DNA from: Nitrospirota bacterium
GTDB taxonomy: Bacteria; Nitrospirota; Thermodesulfovibrionia; Thermodesulfovibrionales; UBA1546
DNA: 33,465 nucleotides
Direction: 5' to 3'
NCBI GenBank assembly: GCA_021824065.1
Contig: JAKALU010000013.1
Coordinates: 1-33,465 of the forward strand
The notes under the pieces were generated by a model. The model had not been told where the DNA came from and ran no database searches. It saw nothing but the letters and a program-made list of their open reading frames with translations. Shown one piece after another: positions 6,675 to 30,216 of the stretch (its first letter is position 1; each line of letters opens with the position of its first letter). A program made the translations under genes and the position numbers.

Positions 6675-7484
6675 ATGGATAAAACATGGAGATTTATTAA
6701 CTCAGGGCTGTGCAGTGCATCTTACAACATGGCACTCGATGAGGCGATTGCAGCCTCTGTTAGAAAAGGCGATTCGCCTCCAACGCTGAGACTATATGCA
6801 TGGGACAGGCCATCTGTAAGCCTCGGATGTTTTCAGAAAACCAGAGATGTAAACATTGAATACTGTCAGAATAGAGATATCCCGATAGTGCGGAGACCGA
6901 CAGGCGGCAGGGCAATACTCCATAGCAAAGAGCTCACTTATAGCTTCTCTGCGAAAACAGATAATGAGCTGTTTTCAAAAGGTATCTTTGACAGTTATAA
7001 AAAGATAAGTGCAGCACTGCACCTCGCCCTGTCAAAAATCGGGCTTTCAGCCGAATCAAGATTAATCAGAGAAAATCACCAATTGTCAATCGCCAATCGC
7101 CAATCAAAAAGTCCCCTCTGCTTTCAATCAGCATCCTATGGCGAAATTACAATTAATAAGAGGAAGGTAGTAGGTTCTGCCCAGAAGCGCTGGTCTGATG
7201 GGCTTCTGCAGCAGGGGTCAGTCCCTTATTCTATTGAGGAATCAGAGATACAGAAAATATTCAGGATTCAGTCTCCCAAGGATATAAAGGTGGCAATGGC
7301 AGGATTAAAAGATATGATTCCTGATTTAAACGACAAAGAGTTTAGAGAGATTATAAAAGCCTCTTTTGAGAAGACCTTCGATATACAGTTTATTTCGGCT
7401 CTTCCCTCTCAGGAGGAGGCGGCCCTTGCTCTGAAACTTGAGTCGGAGAAGTATCGGGCACCTGAGTGGAACTTTCGGCAATAG
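6675..7484 (+). CDS. Lipoate-protein ligase A family protein
   Basis: MALDEAI, RRPTGGRAILHSKELTYS, KVVGSAQKR, C-terminal KYRAPEWNF. Confidence 0.88.
   Translation: MDKTWRFINSGLCSASYNMALDEAIAASVRKGDSPPTLRLYAWDRPSVSLGCFQKTRDVNIEYCQNRDIPIVRRPTGGRAILHSKELTYSFSAKTDNELFSKGIFDSYKKISAALHLALSKIGLSAESRLIRENHQLSIANRQSKSPLCFQSASYGEITINKRKVVGSAQKRWSDGLLQQGSVPYSIEESEIQKIFRIQSPKDIKVAMAGLKDMIPDLNDKEFREIIKASFEKTFDIQFISALPSQEEAALALKLESEKYRAPEWNFRQ
7078..7118. repeat. Short AATCGCC-type repeat inside the lipoate ligase CDS
   Basis: caccaattgtcaatcgccaatcgccaatcaaaaag encodes HQLSIANRQSK in frame. Confidence 0.6.
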
Positions 7485-12599: not shown

Positions 12600-12648
12600 T
12601 CCCCCTTGCCCAAACTCTCCGCAGTGCATATAATGAAATCATTACATG
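12600..12648 (+). promoter_or_regulatory. Promoter element copy 1
   Basis: TTGCCC (12606-12611), 17-nt spacer, TATAAT (12629-12634), ATG 11 nt later (12646). Confidence 0.65.
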
Positions 12649-12766
12649 AAAATAAACAATTATCATGAAGCAGCAGTAGGTCAGGCTTTCCTTTGTGCAT
12701 AACTGGTCGCAAATGGTCGCAGCTACAACGCTGATTTTAACTTTATAATAAACACCCCATCGCATC

Positions 12767-13410: not shown

Positions 13411-13445
13411 CCCCCCTTGCCCAAACTTGCCCCAGCGCATATAAA
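13411..13445 (+). promoter_or_regulatory. Promoter element copy 2
   Basis: TTGCCC (13417-13422), 17-nt spacer, TATAAA (13440-13445). Confidence 0.55.
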
Positions 13446-13510
13446 AAGCCTGAAATCGGGCTCGACATCTTGTTTGGATTAGTGTACGATTTAAAAAGGA
13501 GGGGTCAGAA

Positions 13511-13781: not shown

Positions 13782-13827
13782 CCCCCCTTGCCCAAACCTT
13801 CCTTAGTGCATATAATGAAATCAACAC
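13782..13827 (+). promoter_or_regulatory. Promoter element copy 3, upstream of the OmpR-type regulator
   Basis: TTGCCC (13788-13793), 17-nt spacer, TATAAT (13811-13816), CDS start at 13828. Confidence 0.7.
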
Positions 13828-14517
13828 ATGAGCAACGAAAAAATTCTTATAGTTGAAGACGAGAAGAAGATTGCAGACATCGTAAAGTCATACCTTAAAA
13901 GGGATGGGTTTAATGTCAATATTGCAGAAACAGGAGAACAGGCATTAAAGTTAATCAAAAATAAATACGACCTCATAATCCTTGACCTGAAACTTCCTGA
14001 CATTGATGGAGAAACAATATGCAGCACTATCAGGGAATTCTCAGACGTGCCCATAATAATGCTAACCGCTAAAAGCTCAGAAGAGGAAAGAGTGAAAGGC
14101 CTTGGAATAGGGGCCGATGATTATGTGGTAAAACCGTTCAGCCCGAGGGAACTCGTGGCAAGGGTGAAGGCGCATCTGAGGCGGACAAAGAAAGGCGAAA
14201 AAAAGGTTCTGTCTTTTAACAAAGGGGCACTGAAGATCGATACCCTCTCAATGGAGGTTACAAAAAGAGAAACAGTTATCCCTCTTACAATCACTGAATT
14301 CAAAATATTGCTCGGCCTTGCAGAAAGACCGCATGTTATATTCAGCAGGCTTCAGCTTGTAAATATGGTTCAGGGCTATGACTTTGAGGGTTATGACAGG
14401 GTTATAGATGCCCATATAAAAAACATCAGGCATAAGATAGAGGATGACACTCAAAAGCCGATGTTCATTAAAACAGTTTATGGCGCAGGATATAAGTTTA
14501 TAGGGGTTCCTGACTGA
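13828..14517 (+). CDS. OmpR/PhoB-family response regulator
   Basis: REC domain (LIILDLKLPDIDG, GADDYVVKPFSPRELVARVKAHLRR) plus winged helix (VIDAHIKNIRHKIEDD...KTVYGAGYKF). Confidence 0.93.
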   Translation: MSNEKILIVEDEKKIADIVKSYLKRDGFNVNIAETGEQALKLIKNKYDLIILDLKLPDIDGETICSTIREFSDVPIIMLTAKSSEEERVKGLGIGADDYVVKPFSPRELVARVKAHLRRTKKGEKKVLSFNKGALKIDTLSMEVTKRETVIPLTITEFKILLGLAERPHVIFSRLQLVNMVQGYDFEGYDRVIDAHIKNIRHKIEDDTQKPMFIKTVYGAGYKFIGVPD

Positions 14518-14535: not shown

Positions 14536-15915
14536 ATGAAAACTAAAATATTCCTTGCCCTCATAGCCGTCATCCTCGCAGCCCTTCTTTCGAATTTCAT
14601 ATTTGAATGGCTGATAATGAGAGACTTTGACAACTATGTTAACGGAGTTAAAGAAGACCAGTTTTACTGGGTACTCGCATCAGTTGAAGGAAGTTACTCT
14701 GACGGAAGATGGGATAAACAGGCGTTATCAGAGTCTATCCACTGGGCCATGATGCTCGGACTCGACATAAAAGTCCTTAATGCCGAGGGGCAAGAGGTTA
14801 TATCATCACATAAGGCAATGGAATCATTGTCTGATACAATGAAGCACCGTATGGAAGGGCTTTTTCATATCCATGAAACAACAGGTAATTTTGACGAATA
14901 TCCCCTTTACATAAAGGGCAAAAAAATAGGAACTATTCTGTCACGTCCATTTCAAAAAGAAAGAATAAAAGAGAAGGAATTCATATTCAAAAAAAGGACA
15001 AAAAATTTTCTTTATGTCTCTTTTTTAATTGCTGGCGGAGGTTCGCTATTAATAGCCCTGCTCTTAAGCCAGTACCTTTCAAAACCTATTACGAATTTAA
15101 AAAAAGCGGCAGAAAAAATTGCAAGTGGAGATTTCACCGTAAGGACAAGTCCTATATCTTATGATGAGGTCGGGAAGCTTGCCGAAACATTCAATAAAAT
15201 GGCAGAATCTCTGCAAAGAGAAGAAGAATTAAGGGAACACCTTCTTTCCAATATCGCCCATGAATTAAGAACTCCGTTAACAATATTAAAAACCCATGCA
15301 GAGGCGATTACGGATGGAGTAATAGACAGAGAAAAAGGACTCGAAAACATAAAAAATGAGATTGACCGATTAATCAGACTCGTGAAAGGCATCGAAGATA
15401 TCACTGCTGCAGAGGCAAGTTTTTTCACAAAAGGTGAGATGACAGAGATAAACCTCAAAGAATTTCTCTCGGGACTCAGCAACGAAATGCTTCCGGCATT
15501 TAAAGAAAAGGGTCTTGATATAAAGGTTGCAAGGGAAGACGACCTGTTTATTGTTACAGATACCGAAAAACTCGAAAGGATAATAAGGAATATAATTTCA
15601 AATTCTCTGAAATTCACAGAAAAAGGCGGCGTCTGGATTGACTACGGGACGGACGGGAAAACGTTCTTCATCGAGATAAAGGATTCAGGGAAAGGCATAC
15701 CCGAAAATGAAATCCCGTTTATATTCAACCGTTTTTACAGAGTAGAAAATCAAATCCCCTCATTAGTGAAAGGGGGTGAGGGGGGATTAGGACTGGGGCT
15801 TGCCATAGTAAAAGAGCTCGCTGATGTAATGGGTGGGAAAATTGAAGTCAAAAGCAAGGCCAATGAAGGGACAACTTTCAGGATATATTTTGTGATGCGG
15901 CCAGCCAATAGATAA
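14536..15915 (+). CDS. HAMP-domain sensor histidine kinase
   Basis: Two TMs, HAMP (YLSKPITNLKKAAEKIASGDF), SNIAHELRTPLTILKTHAEAI, HATPase with LGLGLAIVKELADVMGG. Confidence 0.92.
   Translation: MKTKIFLALIAVILAALLSNFIFEWLIMRDFDNYVNGVKEDQFYWVLASVEGSYSDGRWDKQALSESIHWAMMLGLDIKVLNAEGQEVISSHKAMESLSDTMKHRMEGLFHIHETTGNFDEYPLYIKGKKIGTILSRPFQKERIKEKEFIFKKRTKNFLYVSFLIAGGGSLLIALLLSQYLSKPITNLKKAAEKIASGDFTVRTSPISYDEVGKLAETFNKMAESLQREEELREHLLSNIAHELRTPLTILKTHAEAITDGVIDREKGLENIKNEIDRLIRLVKGIEDITAAEASFFTKGEMTEINLKEFLSGLSNEMLPAFKEKGLDIKVAREDDLFIVTDTEKLERIIRNIISNSLKFTEKGGVWIDYGTDGKTFFIEIKDSGKGIPENEIPFIFNRFYRVENQIPSLVKGGEGGLGLGLAIVKELADVMGGKIEVKSKANEGTTFRIYFVMRPANR
15753..15788. repeat. G/C-run palindromic repeat inside the histidine kinase CDS
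   Basis: aatcccctcattagtgaaagggggtgaggggggatt encodes IPSLVKGGEGG within the ATP-lid region. Confidence 0.65.
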
Positions 15916-17734: not shown

Positions 17735-17753
17735 TCAAATGTGGATAAAGTAG

Positions 17754-17825
17754 AGATTCTGAAACAAGTCCGGCATGACAACTAAAAATCGAATAATCTG
17801 TCATTCTGAACTTGTTTCAGAATCT
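17754..17825. repeat. Nested inverted repeat between the selenoprotein and YtkA-like genes
   Basis: AGATTCTGAAACAAGT (17754-17769) and ACTTGTTTCAGAATCT (17810-17825), perfect 16-bp arms, with inner ATGACA/TGTCAT. Confidence 0.8.
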
Positions 17826-17845: not shown

Positions 17846-18235
17846 ATGAAAAAATTGGCTGTATTCAGTTTAATCCTGCTTTTAATAGCAGGCATAGCAT
17901 ACGCAAAGGACTACGAGGTAAAGAAAAAGGCAGGGGATTATGATGTCGAAGTAAAGATCGATAAGAACCCGCCTGTTGTTGGTGACAACAACATTAAGGT
18001 TGAGATAAAAGACTCCGCTGGCAAATATGTCACTGATGCAAAAGTAAAGGTTGAATACTCCATGCCAGCAATGCCGGGTATGCCTGCAATGACCTATAAA
18101 ACAGATGCTGCATTAAAGGGCAATGAATATAAGGCAAAGATGAATCTTTCGATGTCAGGTGCATGGAATGTTGCTGTAAAAATAATTCGTGGCGGCAAAA
18201 CAACAACAGTAAAGTTCAATGTGGATGCACATTAG
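17846..18235 (+). CDS. YtkA/FixH-like exported domain protein
   Basis: Signal peptide; YDVEVKIDKNPPVVGDNNIKVEIKDSAGKYVTDAKVKVEYSMPAMPGMPAM...SGAWNVAVKIIRGGKTTTVKFNV. Confidence 0.8.
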   Translation: MKKLAVFSLILLLIAGIAYAKDYEVKKKAGDYDVEVKIDKNPPVVGDNNIKVEIKDSAGKYVTDAKVKVEYSMPAMPGMPAMTYKTDAALKGNEYKAKMNLSMSGAWNVAVKIIRGGKTTTVKFNVDAH

Positions 18236-18248
18236 AAACAGAATAAAG

Positions 18249-19568
18249 ATGCCAGAGCACAGAGCACAGACAAAATCTCTAAAATCACTGGTTAAAAAAT
18301 CTGTGTTCTGTGTTCTGTGTTCTGTGTTCTTGGCTCCTAATGCTTTTGCTGAAGACTTAAAGCTTCAGGATCTGATTGATGAGGGATTAAAAAATAACCA
18401 TGACCTTATTGTTTCTGAGTTCAGGGCCTCTACTTCGAAATACAGAATACCTCAGGCTCAGAGCCTTCCTGATCCAATGTTCATGGTCGGTTATCAGAAT
18501 GAAGGGTGGAGCAGATATACATATGGCGAAATGGAAGGCGCACAATGGATGTTCTCTGCATCTCAGATGTTCCCATTCCCGGGGAAACTCTCATTAAAAG
18601 GAGAGATGGTTGCTAAAGAATCTGAAAGCCTGAAGGCATCGTATGAATCTGCAAAACTTGCAACCATAGCAAAAATCAAAGAACTATACTATGATTTATT
18701 TCTTACATATAAGGATATTGACCTTATCGGAGACAAGACTGCGCTTTTCTCAAAAATAGAGGATGCTGCACTTGCACGATATTCAACTGGCATGGCGCCT
18801 CAACAGGAAGTCCTGATGGCACAGACAGAAAAATACATGCTTCTTGAAAAAGAGGAGATGCTGAAACAAAAAATCCAATCCATCGAGGCAATGCTCAATG
18901 CAACTGTTGGAAGGGATATTAATTCTCCGCTCGGCAGACCGGTTGAGCCTGCTTACACCGCATATGATTATAGTATGGATGGGCTGCTTACGATGTCATA
19001 CGAAAATTCTCCAGAGATAAAATTTAAAGAGAAAATGATTGAGGCAGCAGCAGCAAAGGTTAAGATGGCTGAGAAAGAATATTATCCCGATTTCACACTC
19101 AGTGCGAGCGTATTTAAAAGAAAAGGTGATTTTGAAGACATGTGGAGTCTTACAACCACAATTAATATCCCAATATTTTATAGGACAAAACAGAAAATGG
19201 CTGTGCTTGAGACAGAATCCTCCCTTGCAGAAGCAAGGCATGAACTTGAGGCAACAAGGTTTATGCTGGCTTCTGGCATAAGGGACAACTACTCAATGTT
19301 AAAGACAGCAGATAGATTGATGGAACTTTACAAAAATGGTCTGATACCCAAAACATATCAAGACTATGAATTAGCCTTATCAGGTTATATAACAGGAAAG
19401 ATTGAGGCAATAACTGTTATATCGAGGCTAAAATCTCTCATTGACTATGAACTTTTATACTGGGGACAGTTCGTTGAAAGGGAGAAAGCAATAGCAAGGA
19501 TTGAGGCATTAACGACAGTCAGTAGTCAGCAGTCAGTAGTCAGCAGTCAAGGAGAAAAAGAGAAATGA
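18249..19568 (+). CDS. TolC-family outer-membrane efflux protein (CusC-like)
   Basis: LQDLIDEGLKNNHDL, repeated coiled-coil OMF helices, signal peptide ending NAFA. Confidence 0.88.
   Translation: MPEHRAQTKSLKSLVKKSVFCVLCSVFLAPNAFAEDLKLQDLIDEGLKNNHDLIVSEFRASTSKYRIPQAQSLPDPMFMVGYQNEGWSRYTYGEMEGAQWMFSASQMFPFPGKLSLKGEMVAKESESLKASYESAKLATIAKIKELYYDLFLTYKDIDLIGDKTALFSKIEDAALARYSTGMAPQQEVLMAQTEKYMLLEKEEMLKQKIQSIEAMLNATVGRDINSPLGRPVEPAYTAYDYSMDGLLTMSYENSPEIKFKEKMIEAAAAKVKMAEKEYYPDFTLSASVFKRKGDFEDMWSLTTTINIPIFYRTKQKMAVLETESSLAEARHELEATRFMLASGIRDNYSMLKTADRLMELYKNGLIPKTYQDYELALSGYITGKIEAITVISRLKSLIDYELLYWGQFVEREKAIARIEALTTVSSQQSVVSSQGEKEK
18300..18330. repeat. 7-bp tandem repeat TCTGTGT (4 units plus partial) in the signal-peptide coding region
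   Basis: tctgtgttctgtgttctgtgttctgtgttct read directly from sequence. Confidence 0.95.
19516..19549. repeat. 14-bp tandem repeat at the 3' end of the TolC-like gene
   Basis: CAGTCAGTAGTCAG x2 plus CAGTCA; encodes TVSSQQSVVSSQ. Confidence 0.95.
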
Positions 19569-20866
19569 AAAAGAGAAAGCTGATAATCATCGCTGGATTG
19601 ATTTTAGTAGCTGGGTTTTTATTTTATCTTTCAAAATCAGGCTCGCTTGATAATATTTTAAAAACTAAAGCAGAGAAGTCCGTACAATCATCTCAAGCTA
19701 ATCCAGAACATCAGCAGTCTGCAGAAACCGCAAAACCCGAGGAACAAAGCCAACCTCCGGAGGAGCAAACAGAAGAAGTTCCTACAGTTGAAATACCCTT
19801 AGACAAACAGCAGTTAATCGGGGTTAAGACAACCGAGGTAGCAGTAAAGCCCCTTCAGAAGATTATAAGAACAGTAGGCCGTATTGAATATGATGAGAGA
19901 AGGCTTGCCACTGTTAATACAAAGATTGAAGGATGGATTGAGAAACTCTATGTGGATTATACAGGCAGATATGTAAAAAAAGGAGAACCACTATCTGAGA
20001 TTTACAGCCCTGAGCTCATCGCTACTCAGCAGGAATTCATAAATGCAGTGAAATGGGGTCAGTCTCCTCAGGCGACTCGTCCGCACCCGGGCGGACTCGC
20101 CGAGGAGAGCCGAGGCGAGGGGTCAGGGGTCAGGGGTCAGGAGTCGAAGGTAGTTAGTGAATTAATATCAAAGGATGCCGCGGCAATAGTCGAGGCTGCA
20201 AGACAGAGATTAAGACTCTGGGACATAACAGAAAATCAGATCAAAAAGATTGAAGAAACAGGAAAGCCTATAAGGACATTGACTATATACAGCCCTGTGA
20301 GCGGCTATGTTGTTCAAAAAATGGCATTGCAAGGGATGCGTGTAATGCCTGGCGAAAAGCTTTTTGATGTTGCAGACCTGTCAACAGTCTGGGTAGTTTC
20401 TGATATTTATGAATATGAATTGCCTCTGATAAAAACAGGACAGACAGCAAAAATAAGTCTGAGCTATTTCCCCGGCAAAGAATTTTCATCAGTGATTGAT
20501 TATGTTTATCCTGCACTTGCAGGCGAGACAAGGACTGCTAAAGTAAGATTCTCAATCTCAAATCCCGGCGGGCAGCTTAAACCCCAGATGTTTACCAACG
20601 TAGAAGTAAAGATTGACCTTGGCAGAAAACTTGCCATTCCTGATGATGCTGTAATTGATACAGGCACAAGGCAGATTGTCTATGTGGATAAAGATGAAGG
20701 ATATTTTGAACCGAGGGAGGTAATGCTCGGCATAAGGGCAGAAGGTTTCAGAGAAGTGGTCATGGGATTAAAAGCAGGCGAAAAGGTCGCCTCATCTGCA
20801 ACGTTCCTAATTGATTCAGAGGCACAGCTTAAAGGTGTCACACCGCTGGGCGAACATAAACATTAA
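19565..20866 (+). CDS. Efflux RND periplasmic adaptor (CusB-like)
   Basis: GRIEYDERRLATVNTKIEGWIEKLYVDYTGRYVKKGEPLSEIYSPELIATQQEFI; LTIYSPVSGYVVQKMALQGMRVMPGEKLFDVADLSTVWV. Confidence 0.92.
   Translation: MKKRKLIIIAGLILVAGFLFYLSKSGSLDNILKTKAEKSVQSSQANPEHQQSAETAKPEEQSQPPEEQTEEVPTVEIPLDKQQLIGVKTTEVAVKPLQKIIRTVGRIEYDERRLATVNTKIEGWIEKLYVDYTGRYVKKGEPLSEIYSPELIATQQEFINAVKWGQSPQATRPHPGGLAEESRGEGSGVRGQESKVVSELISKDAAAIVEAARQRLRLWDITENQIKKIEETGKPIRTLTIYSPVSGYVVQKMALQGMRVMPGEKLFDVADLSTVWVVSDIYEYELPLIKTGQTAKISLSYFPGKEFSSVIDYVYPALAGETRTAKVRFSISNPGGQLKPQMFTNVEVKIDLGRKLAIPDDAVIDTGTRQIVYVDKDEGYFEPREVMLGIRAEGFREVVMGLKAGEKVASSATFLIDSEAQLKGVTPLGEHKH
20119..20139. repeat. 7-bp tandem repeat GGGGTCA x3 inside the cusB-like CDS
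   Basis: ggggtcaggggtcaggggtca, next to a GTCCGC/GCGGAC hairpin (about 20079-20096). Confidence 0.9.
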
Positions 20867-20921: not shown

Positions 20922-21005
20922 TCCCGACAAAAAGTCGGGGGACTCCGAGGATTTTGCCTCACCCCCCTCATGTCCCCCCTTGGCAAGGGGGGATGTAAGG
21001 GGGGT
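20922..21005. repeat. Double-hairpin G/C-run repeat in the cusB-cusA intergenic region
   Basis: CCCGAC-AAAAA-GTCGGG plus ACCCCCCT...CCCCCCTTG-G-CAAGGGGGG...AGGGGGGT. Confidence 0.85.
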
Positions 21006-28016: not shown

Positions 28017-28874
28017 ATGGCAAAGTTACATTTTAATAAAGTCACTATTCTTGGAGTTGGCCTGATTGGTGCTTCCTTTGCCCTTGCTCTTAAGAAAAAA
28101 AGGCTCTGCAATCAGATAACAGGGTATGGGAGAAGAGAAAATAACCTCAGAAGGGCAAAGGAGATGAAGATAATCGATTCTCTGGAGCTTGATGCCGCTA
28201 ACGCCTGTATAGATTCTGACCTTATTCTGTTTTCTATGCCAGTTGGTTCTTTTACTGAGACAGCAAAGATGATGAAAGGTTCTTTAAAGGACGGTGCAAT
28301 TGTAACAGACGTTGGAAGCGTGAAAGGGGAACTTGTTAAGAAGATGGAGGGATTGATGCCCGGGGGTGTTAGTTTTGTGGGTGGTCATCCAATAGCAGGA
28401 AGTGATAGAACAGGGATAGATACAGCAACAGCAGATTTATTTATTGGAGCAAAATGTATCCTAACGCCAACAGAAAAGACCGATAAGACCGCACTTAATA
28501 AAATTACTGAATTATGGAATGCATTAGGCGCTGTTACCTCGATCCTGAGTCCTGATAAACACGACAGGGTATATGCTGCTGTAAGCCACCTCCCACACAT
28601 TATTGCCTATGCCATTGTCAACACTGTTGCCGATATAGACAGTTCTTATCTTAAGTTTGCAGGTCAGGGTTTTAAAGATACGACAAGGATTGCTTCGAGT
28701 TCTCCAGAACTCTGGCGGGATATATGTTTGATGAACAGGGAAAATCTTCTTGAATTCATAGAGATTTTCAAGAAGAATCTCGATGGTCTTGGCAGATATT
28801 TGCAGGAATCAGATTCCGATGCCCTGGAAAAAGAATTCAATAAGGCCAAGACATTGAGGGAAGATGTCAGATAG
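28017..28874 (+). CDS. tyrA: Prephenate dehydrogenase
   Basis: GVGLIGASFALALKKK, GGHPIAGSDRTGID, HDRVYAAVSHLPHIIAYA. Confidence 0.94.
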   Translation: MAKLHFNKVTILGVGLIGASFALALKKKRLCNQITGYGRRENNLRRAKEMKIIDSLELDAANACIDSDLILFSMPVGSFTETAKMMKGSLKDGAIVTDVGSVKGELVKKMEGLMPGGVSFVGGHPIAGSDRTGIDTATADLFIGAKCILTPTEKTDKTALNKITELWNALGAVTSILSPDKHDRVYAAVSHLPHIIAYAIVNTVADIDSSYLKFAGQGFKDTTRIASSSPELWRDICLMNRENLLEFIEIFKKNLDGLGRYLQESDSDALEKEFNKAKTLREDVR

Positions 28875-30216
28875 AATTGAACTCAAAAGAGCAAAAAAAC
28901 TGAAAGGCGAAATAATACCCCCGCCTGATAAATCAATATCGCACAGGGCAGTAATCCTCTCATCAATATCAAAAGGCAAAAGCATCATAAAAAATTTTTT
29001 GAGGGCTGAAGATACATTAAGCACAGTTAATGCTTTTAGAAGACTTGGGATAGAAATAGAAGAAAAATTACCCCCCCGCCGCCCCCCCTTGCCAAGGGGG
29101 GGATGGGGGGGTAAAGAAGGTACCTCTTCGTGTGAGCTAATAGTTCACGGCAAGGGGTTTCATGGCCTCAAAGAGCCTGAAAATATTATTGACTGTGGAA
29201 ATTCAGGTACAACAATAAGATTGCTCTCAGGGATTCTTTCAGGCAATCCATTTCTCTCAATCCTTACAGGCGATGATTCTTTAAGGAGAAGACCCATGAA
29301 AAGGGTTATAACCCCGTTAAAACAGATGGGAACTGAGATTGCTGCACGGGCTGATGATGCTTATCCTCCAATTGTTATAAAAGGTAAACAGCTAAAACCA
29401 ATCAGGTATGAGATGCCGATTGCGAGTGCACAGGTCAAGTCTGCAATACTCCTTGCAGGGCTTTATGCTGATGGAGAGACAGAAATCATAGAGCCTGTGA
29501 AATCACGTGACCATACAGAAAGAATGCTTCCTTCTTATGGCGCTGAGATAAAGGTTGAAGGTCTGAGTATAAAAATCAAAGGTGGCACCGAGCTGAAAGG
29601 CAGGAATACAGAAGTGCCAGGTGATTTCTCATCAGCAGCATTTTTTATTATTGCAGCCCTTTTGATGAATAACTCTGATGTGATAATAAAAAATGTTGGA
29701 ATAAACCCAACGAGGGTAGGGCTTCTTGATGCCCTGAAGAAAATGGGCGCAGAGATTAAATTAATGAATGTAAGAGATGTTTCAGGCGAGCCGGTTGCAG
29801 ACATACACTGCAAGGGAGCGCAAGGGTTAAAAGCAATAAACATAACAAAAGAGCAGGTCCCATCATTGATTGATGAGTTCCCGATAATATGTATTGCTGC
29901 AACTCAGGCAGATGGTATAACTACTATAAGAGGCTCAGAAGAACTCAGGGTAAAAGAGTCTGACAGGATAAAGGCAATGGCAGAAGGGTTGAGAAAGATG
30001 GCAGCAGAGGTCGAAGAATTCAAAGATGGCCTGAGCATAAAAGGTCCGGCAAAACTTAAAGGCGCAGTAATAGACAGTTATGGAGACCATAGAATTGCAA
30101 TGGCATTTTCCATAGCTGCATTGATTGCAAGCAGGACAACAACTATAAAAGGCGTTTCATCTGTGAATATATCGTTTCCTGGGTTTTATAAGATATTGAA
30201 AGGGCTTACGAAATAA
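28864..30216 (+). CDS. aroA: EPSP synthase (3-phosphoshikimate 1-carboxyvinyltransferase)
   Basis: PPDKSISHRAVILSSI, DCGNSGTTIRLLSG, RPMKRVITPLKQMG, GDHRIAMAFSIAAL. Confidence 0.96.
   Translation: MSDRIELKRAKKLKGEIIPPPDKSISHRAVILSSISKGKSIIKNFLRAEDTLSTVNAFRRLGIEIEEKLPPRRPPLPRGGWGGKEGTSSCELIVHGKGFHGLKEPENIIDCGNSGTTIRLLSGILSGNPFLSILTGDDSLRRRPMKRVITPLKQMGTEIAARADDAYPPIVIKGKQLKPIRYEMPIASAQVKSAILLAGLYADGETEIIEPVKSRDHTERMLPSYGAEIKVEGLSIKIKGGTELKGRNTEVPGDFSSAAFFIIAALLMNNSDVIIKNVGINPTRVGLLDALKKMGAEIKLMNVRDVSGEPVADIHCKGAQGLKAINITKEQVPSLIDEFPIICIAATQADGITTIRGSEELRVKESDRIKAMAEGLRKMAAEVEEFKDGLSIKGPAKLKGAVIDSYGDHRIAMAFSIAALIASRTTTIKGVSSVNISFPGFYKILKGLTK
29068..29114. repeat. Double palindromic G/C-run repeat inside aroA
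   Basis: TTACCCCCCC-gccg-CCCCCCCTTG-C-CAAGGGGGGG-at-GGGGGGGTAA; both arm pairs are perfect. Confidence 0.92.

Follow-up and report, generated by a model that had tools for sequence, protein, structure and literature searches.

An in-frame palindrome within aroA

The window, which here denotes the whole analysed stretch of 33,465 nucleotides, is contig 38 of the host genome G000 (2.73 Mb in 211 contigs). It contains an open reading frame of 450 codons whose product matches the profile TIGR01356 with 421.7 bits (cut-off 287), identifying it as a genuine AroA (EPSP synthase). The conserved motifs DKSISHR, GNSGTT, SAQVKSA and KESDR are all present. Within this gene lies a palindrome of the sequence TTACCCCCCCGCCGCCCCCCCTTGCCAAGGGGGGGATGGGGGGGTAA, whose in-frame translation, L69-PPRRPPLPRGGWGG-K84, contributes approximately 16 residues to an otherwise intact enzyme (Table 1). 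A sequence-only reading of this DNA had claimed both an in-frame palindrome inside aroA and the preservation of its frame; both are borne out. The element has a GC content of 81%, compared to 41% for the window. A plasmid search with the window aroA found no plasmid carriage, and an Rfam scan of the window matched no known RNA.

Table 1 Coordinates of aroA, its insert and the intergenic copy of the repeat in the window
Feature	Position	Strand	Remarks
aroA (EPSP synthase, 450 aa, intact apart from insert)	28864..30216	+	profile match and motifs
Palindrome including outer T-A pairs, 47 bp	29068..29114	+	encodes residues 69-84, LPPRRPPLPRGGWGGK
43-bp repeat element, subtype A	29070..29112	-	bottom strand is the commoner orientation, with ACCCCCCCATC at left
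19-bp core CCCCCCTTGCCAAGGGGGG	29083..29101	undirected (.)	core search
Extra sequence right of palindrome	29115..29135	+	similar in G012, missing from empty orthologues
Intergenic copy, subtype B, 45 bp	20961..21005	.	between efflux adaptor (CusB-like) and CusA-like genes

The insert extends a turn that is predicted to be disordered

In an AlphaFold2 model of the window AroA (17-sequence alignment, mean pLDDT 84.9), residues 71–88 form the only stretch with a pLDDT below 50 and are flanked by strands comprising residues 64–68 and 89–97. The solved EPSP synthase structure 5bs5 lacks most of residues 68–91. This low-confidence turn between two strands, together with the gap in 5bs5, indicates that the insert is an extension of a β-hairpin turn, disordered in the prediction.

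To place the insert among orthologues, we compared AroA across 60 relatives. In six of them (G009, G008, G010, G006, G003 and G025), AroA is 428–432 residues long and its turn is short, without the insert; the first three share 73–81% identity with the window AroA, the highest value being that of G009 (81%). The net size difference between the window aroA and that of G009 is 60 bp, which is more than the palindrome accounts for, and further sequence has therefore arrived or diverged at this turn. The AroA of G012, an independent metagenome-assembled genome (MAG), also contains this palindrome; the unusual GCCG spacer is identical and the right flank similar, so the insertion is probably shared by common descent or exchange, and likely old. 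The two palindromes differ by a paired change, TTACC..GGTAA in G000 versus TCACC..GGTGA in G012.

Other relatives carry different sequences at the same turn. In G046, the palindrome is nested among GAAGTCA heptamers; GAAGTCA-type repeats are found in G002 (with additional repeats), G005, G011 and G041, CAGAGCAG octamers in G013 and G021, and AAGGGGTC in G001. An AroA tree made without the insert columns requires at least ten state changes at the turn, or seven if sites are scored as empty or occupied, both counts being approximate given the weak nodes of the tree. A second AroA loop, near residue 241, contains inserts in G004, G026 and G041.

A dispersed repeat family located mostly in genes

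The genome-wide consensus search that the sequence-only reading had proposed as a check finds the 19-mer core, with up to two mismatches, at 36 places in G000, and at none with a reversed control. All 36 copies were retrieved and classified by open reading frame: 28 are in frame within reading frames longer than 200 residues, most of which have recognized family domains. The host proteins include AroA, AroC, GuaA, CarA, CarB, FabF, MetG, PrmC and TsaD; homoserine dehydrogenase, CobA-HemD, KdtA, Mfd, a transketolase subunit and a ferredoxin oxidoreductase subunit; and TatD-radical SAM and heptosyltransferase proteins, among others. The copy in the transketolase subunit lies so close to the N-terminus that the real start codon might be downstream of it. 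The remaining eight copies are intergenic; at each of them, the neighbouring genes are distinct and do not look like halves of one interrupted gene, although this classification could also score a copy as intergenic if its insertion had left the host gene unrecognizable. One of them is in the window, where recurrence of the core CCCCCCTTGNCAAGGGGGG at 20974–20992 had been claimed; the core is indeed part of a full copy, housed in a gap of ~210 bp. The label ‘intergenic-type’ that had been given to the palindrome is nevertheless inaccurate for a family that is mostly genic and, in the aroA subtype, almost exclusively so.

G012 contains 86 copies, and of the 48 distinct ones analysed, 31 lie within reading frames of at least 200 residues. 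When compared to random 45-bp windows of the same loci, the genic share is 28/36 versus 83% in G000 and 31/48 versus 80% in G012. Being close to or below the random expectation, these values show that the palindrome does not avoid genes as REPs do.

Two subtypes can be distinguished. Subtype A is often 43 bp long (for example, ACCCCCCCATCCCCCCCTTGGCAAGGGGGGGACAAGGGGGGGT) and its inner stem has seven C and seven G, whereas subtype B is mostly 44–45 bp long and has six of each, with a T at the left boundary and an A at the right. Subtype A is genic in 31 of 33 cases, compared to 22 of 40 for subtype B (Fisher p = 1.8e-4). A typical subtype A copy is free of stops in all six frames and encodes a Pro/Gly-rich peptide in every one of them, whereas a typical subtype B copy is open in four frames and has stops in the other two. 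This split is consistent with selection for readable copies. Subtype A shows a mild bias in its orientation to the host gene (18 to 6, p = 0.02). The palindrome has terminal inverted repeats, ACCCCCC ... GGGGGGT.

Across Nitrospirota, the core is present in 78 of 396 genomes; its distribution is patchy, with a maximum of 86 copies, and it is almost never found in the large family f29. The nearest named relatives of the host are groundwater Nitrospirae MAGs.

Most intergenic copies (L001, L006, L013, L026, L034, L036 at about position 1501, and the one in the window) are embedded in a longer composite repeat, which has GAGGCAAAAGCCCTCGG at one flank of the copy and GCCGATATTC..GCAAAA at the opposite flank. 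This composite may be a separate intergenic element.

Loops of other proteins also hold unrelated repeats

A pattern like that of AroA, in which a loop contains the palindrome, unrelated repeats or nothing, is found in AroC, GuaA, CarA, FabF, MetG, PrmC and TsaD, although some of these loops are naturally variable in length and not every difference need be a repeat. The GAAGTCA repeat, GAAGTCAGAAGTCAG, is present in 21 of 61 genomes; a reversed control gave hardly any matches. Of 44 arrays examined, 40 are on the coding strand of reading frames of at least 200 residues; three more lie in reading frames of 172–182 residues, and one is on the template strand. Whichever forward frame is used, the heptamer encodes the peptide EVRSQKS, whereas in reverse it contains TGA; this rationalizes the coding-strand bias. 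In G046, the palindrome directly follows heptamers in two genes, one of which encodes FabF, where the nested palindrome lies near the site of the FabF palindrome of G000. A further candidate, a AATTCAAA tandem considered as a widespread 21-mer, was rejected after exact matches were found in just 3 of 100 genomes. We conclude that certain protein loops are probably shared landing sites for short DNA, and that this DNA is probably selfish.

Additional repeats were observed in the window. The gene of a CusB-like adaptor contains, at 20063–20155, a GC-rich inverted repeat followed by GGGGTCA heptamers (SPQATRPHPGGLAEESRGEGSGVRGQESKVV), which is probably another in-frame repeat insertion. A histidine kinase reading frame (14536–15915) has QIPSLVKGGEGG between FYRVEN and LGLGLAIVKE (15751–15786), encoded by CCCCTCATTAGTGAAAGGGGGTGAGGGGGG, which resembles a diverged relative of the palindrome. 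Short tandem repeats are found in a lipoate-protein ligase-like reading frame (6675–7484; CAATCGC repeat HQLSIANRQSKS at 7077–7112) and in an outer-membrane efflux reading frame (18219–19568), the C-terminus of which is formed by a GTCAGTAGTCAGCA tandem (VSSQQSVVSSQ, 19518–19550). Outside these genes, a dispersed inverted repeat of the TGTCATTCTGAACTTGTTTCAGAATCT type is intergenic at 2825–2890 and 17753–17825, and a 49-nt direct repeat starting with CCCCCTTGCCCAAAC occurs in three copies near response-regulator genes (12601–12649, 13412–13460 and 13783–13831).

A probable selfish repeat tolerated in protein loops

Our favoured explanation, which we consider probable, is that the aroA palindrome is a short, non-autonomous selfish repeat that inserted into a β-hairpin turn, where its translation yields a disordered, Pro/Gly-rich loop that the enzyme tolerates. 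Such an element would spread by transposition or copying. At the AroA turn, the insert would be translated rather than bypassed and would be neutral for the enzyme. Copies within genes could be deleted only in frame and would thus outlast others. We propose that the absence of stops in six frames, combined with this restriction on deletion, lets copies persist chiefly where a loop encoded by the gene tolerates them, and such survivorship could account for the mainly genic location of readable repeats. These loops are also reused by further short repeats open in every frame of one strand, such as the GAAGTCA heptamers. By eye, we saw no consistent target-site duplication in the flanks of the copies; no mobilizing enzyme was found, and none of 31 loci with a Y1_Tnp gene is flanked by the repeat. 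Transposition is therefore something we only infer. A search of IMG/VR with one specific form of the repeat found no phage carriage.

A broader reading would unite the six-frame-open palindromes and the 7–8-mer tandem arrays, which encode one peptide across all three frames of a strand, in one coding-compatible class whose DNA design would itself let insertions be survived. Its members would be copied preferentially into transcribed genes, at a recurring set of protein loops common to several families of Nitrospirota, by a process that is possibly linked to transcription or RNA. We regard this as doubtful.

The palindrome could instead be a classical REP mobilized by a RAYT (REP-associated tyrosine transposase), its intragenic copies being an occasional by-product. 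Searching 61 genomes for PF01797, we found Y1_Tnp genes, several of them RAYT-like in length, in G000 and most relatives, and genomes of the family that have more of these genes tend to contain more copies of the repeat (Spearman 0.70, n = 16). Intragenic REPs are also known from Opitutus terrae and Rickettsia conorii (PMC3733652). However, a core scan with up to two mismatches detected the palindrome within ~1.5 kb of a Y1_Tnp gene at 0 of 31 loci, comprising both loci of G000 and a single one from each of 29 relatives (including the copy-rich G002, G004, G012 and G046). The foot of the stem has no conserved GTAG or CGTC tag, GTAG being present in occasional copies only; 78% of the copies in G000 and 65% of those in G012 are genic, whereas REPs are predominantly extragenic; and G059 and G051 are rich in Y1_Tnp genes yet have the repeat in few copies or none. 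A REP origin is thus unlikely.

Equally improbable, in our view, is an origin or replacement of the palindrome in situ, in which loops prone to repeats would undergo template switching, slippage or recombination and no mobile copy would arrive. Sister lineages do have different repeats in the same loops, also nested in one another, and the paired change between the aroA palindromes of G000 and G012 suggests arm-to-arm correction. Yet the same 43–45-bp consensus recurs at dozens of unrelated loci per genome, for which local events would need copying from elsewhere.

It is very unlikely that the insert is functional, be it as an mRNA hairpin or G-quadruplex that controls aroA or as a selected protein linker. 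The palindrome is predicted to form a highly stable RNA hairpin (−39.8 kcal/mol, z = −3.1, exceeding all 200 shuffles), seven-G runs occur on both strands, and several genes have insertion sites common to G000 and G012. Against a function, close orthologues are empty or contain unrelated sequence at the AroA turn, the proteins that host the palindrome are functionally unrelated, and the loop is predicted to be disordered.

Finally, GC-rich palindromes with homopolymers are difficult to sequence and the genome is split into 211 contigs, but we give almost no credence to an ancestral AroA loop, given the empty orthologues and the gap in 5bs5, or to an assembly or sequencing artefact, given an independent MAG that carries the insert in the same position, more than 70 like-structured copies in two genomes, and a frame kept in 28 of 28 genic copies, unlike random homopolymer errors. 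These two readings were the refuting outcomes named by the sequence-only reading, and the comparisons made here speak against both.

Implications

The Nitrospirota repeats present a case of in-frame palindromes in core biosynthetic enzymes of groundwater bacteria. A simple design rule, the absence of stops in six frames, predicts which subtype persists in genes, and several unrelated repeats reuse identical loops across genera; together, these two features make the origin of new peptide segments in conserved proteins testable by comparison. They also yield a catalogue of natural insertion-tolerant enzyme loops in AroA, AroC, GuaA, CarA, FabF, MetG, PrmC and TsaD. For genome annotation, Pro/Gly-rich (PPHPPLxKGG) and SEVRSQK-type segments should be expected as inserts and not as functional motifs.

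Comparison with known palindromic elements

Rickettsia provides the best-known palindromic inserts carried in frame by proteins, and scattered cases are known from other organisms. The sequence-only reading had likened the aroA palindrome to Rickettsia palindromic elements (RPEs), a likeness that holds for behaviour but does not extend to membership, given the difference in length and host phylum. As portrayed in PMC10969869 and PMC6649704, RPEs (Ogata et al. 2000, 2002) are dispersed palindromes in and between genes, located in frame in unrelated metabolic genes, where the added peptide is compatible with folding. The Nitrospirota family likewise has many dispersed copies (36 in G000; 86 in G012), in-frame positions in unrelated coding genes (28/36) and empty orthologous sites, the latter for AroA and several of the seven other proteins. 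In contrast to RPEs, for which PMC10969869 gives a length of ~150 bp, the Nitrospirota element measures 43–45 bp. It differs further in its host phylum, in its GC-rich sequence encoding a Pro/Gly peptide, and in the six open frames of subtype A, and relatives of the host fill the same protein loops with unrelated tandem repeats. Our literature search found no earlier description of such repeats in Nitrospirota.

Like the GTAG/CGTC REPs (20–40 bp), of which intragenic examples are described in Opitutus terrae, Thioalkalivibrio and R. conorii, the palindromes are short, present in high copy number, and in some cases located within reading frames, where they encode peptides (PMC3733652). Unlike those REPs, they lack a tetranucleotide tag at the stem foot, are mostly genic, show no RAYT linkage at the 31 loci scanned and have no evident bias towards repair genes. 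A search confined to the Y1_Tnp loci found no parent insertion sequence or transposon with ACCCCCC ends. The terminal inverted repeats of the palindrome are a feature of MITEs, a class that includes QMITE1 and QMITE2 of Coxiella; like these, it is a small non-autonomous inverted repeat for which in-frame fusion to a gene is possible (PMC5896051). Whereas those Coxiella QMITEs that have inserted into functional genes lie at the 3′ ends (PMC5896051), the Nitrospirota inserts occupy internal loops, and they are shorter and GC-rich.
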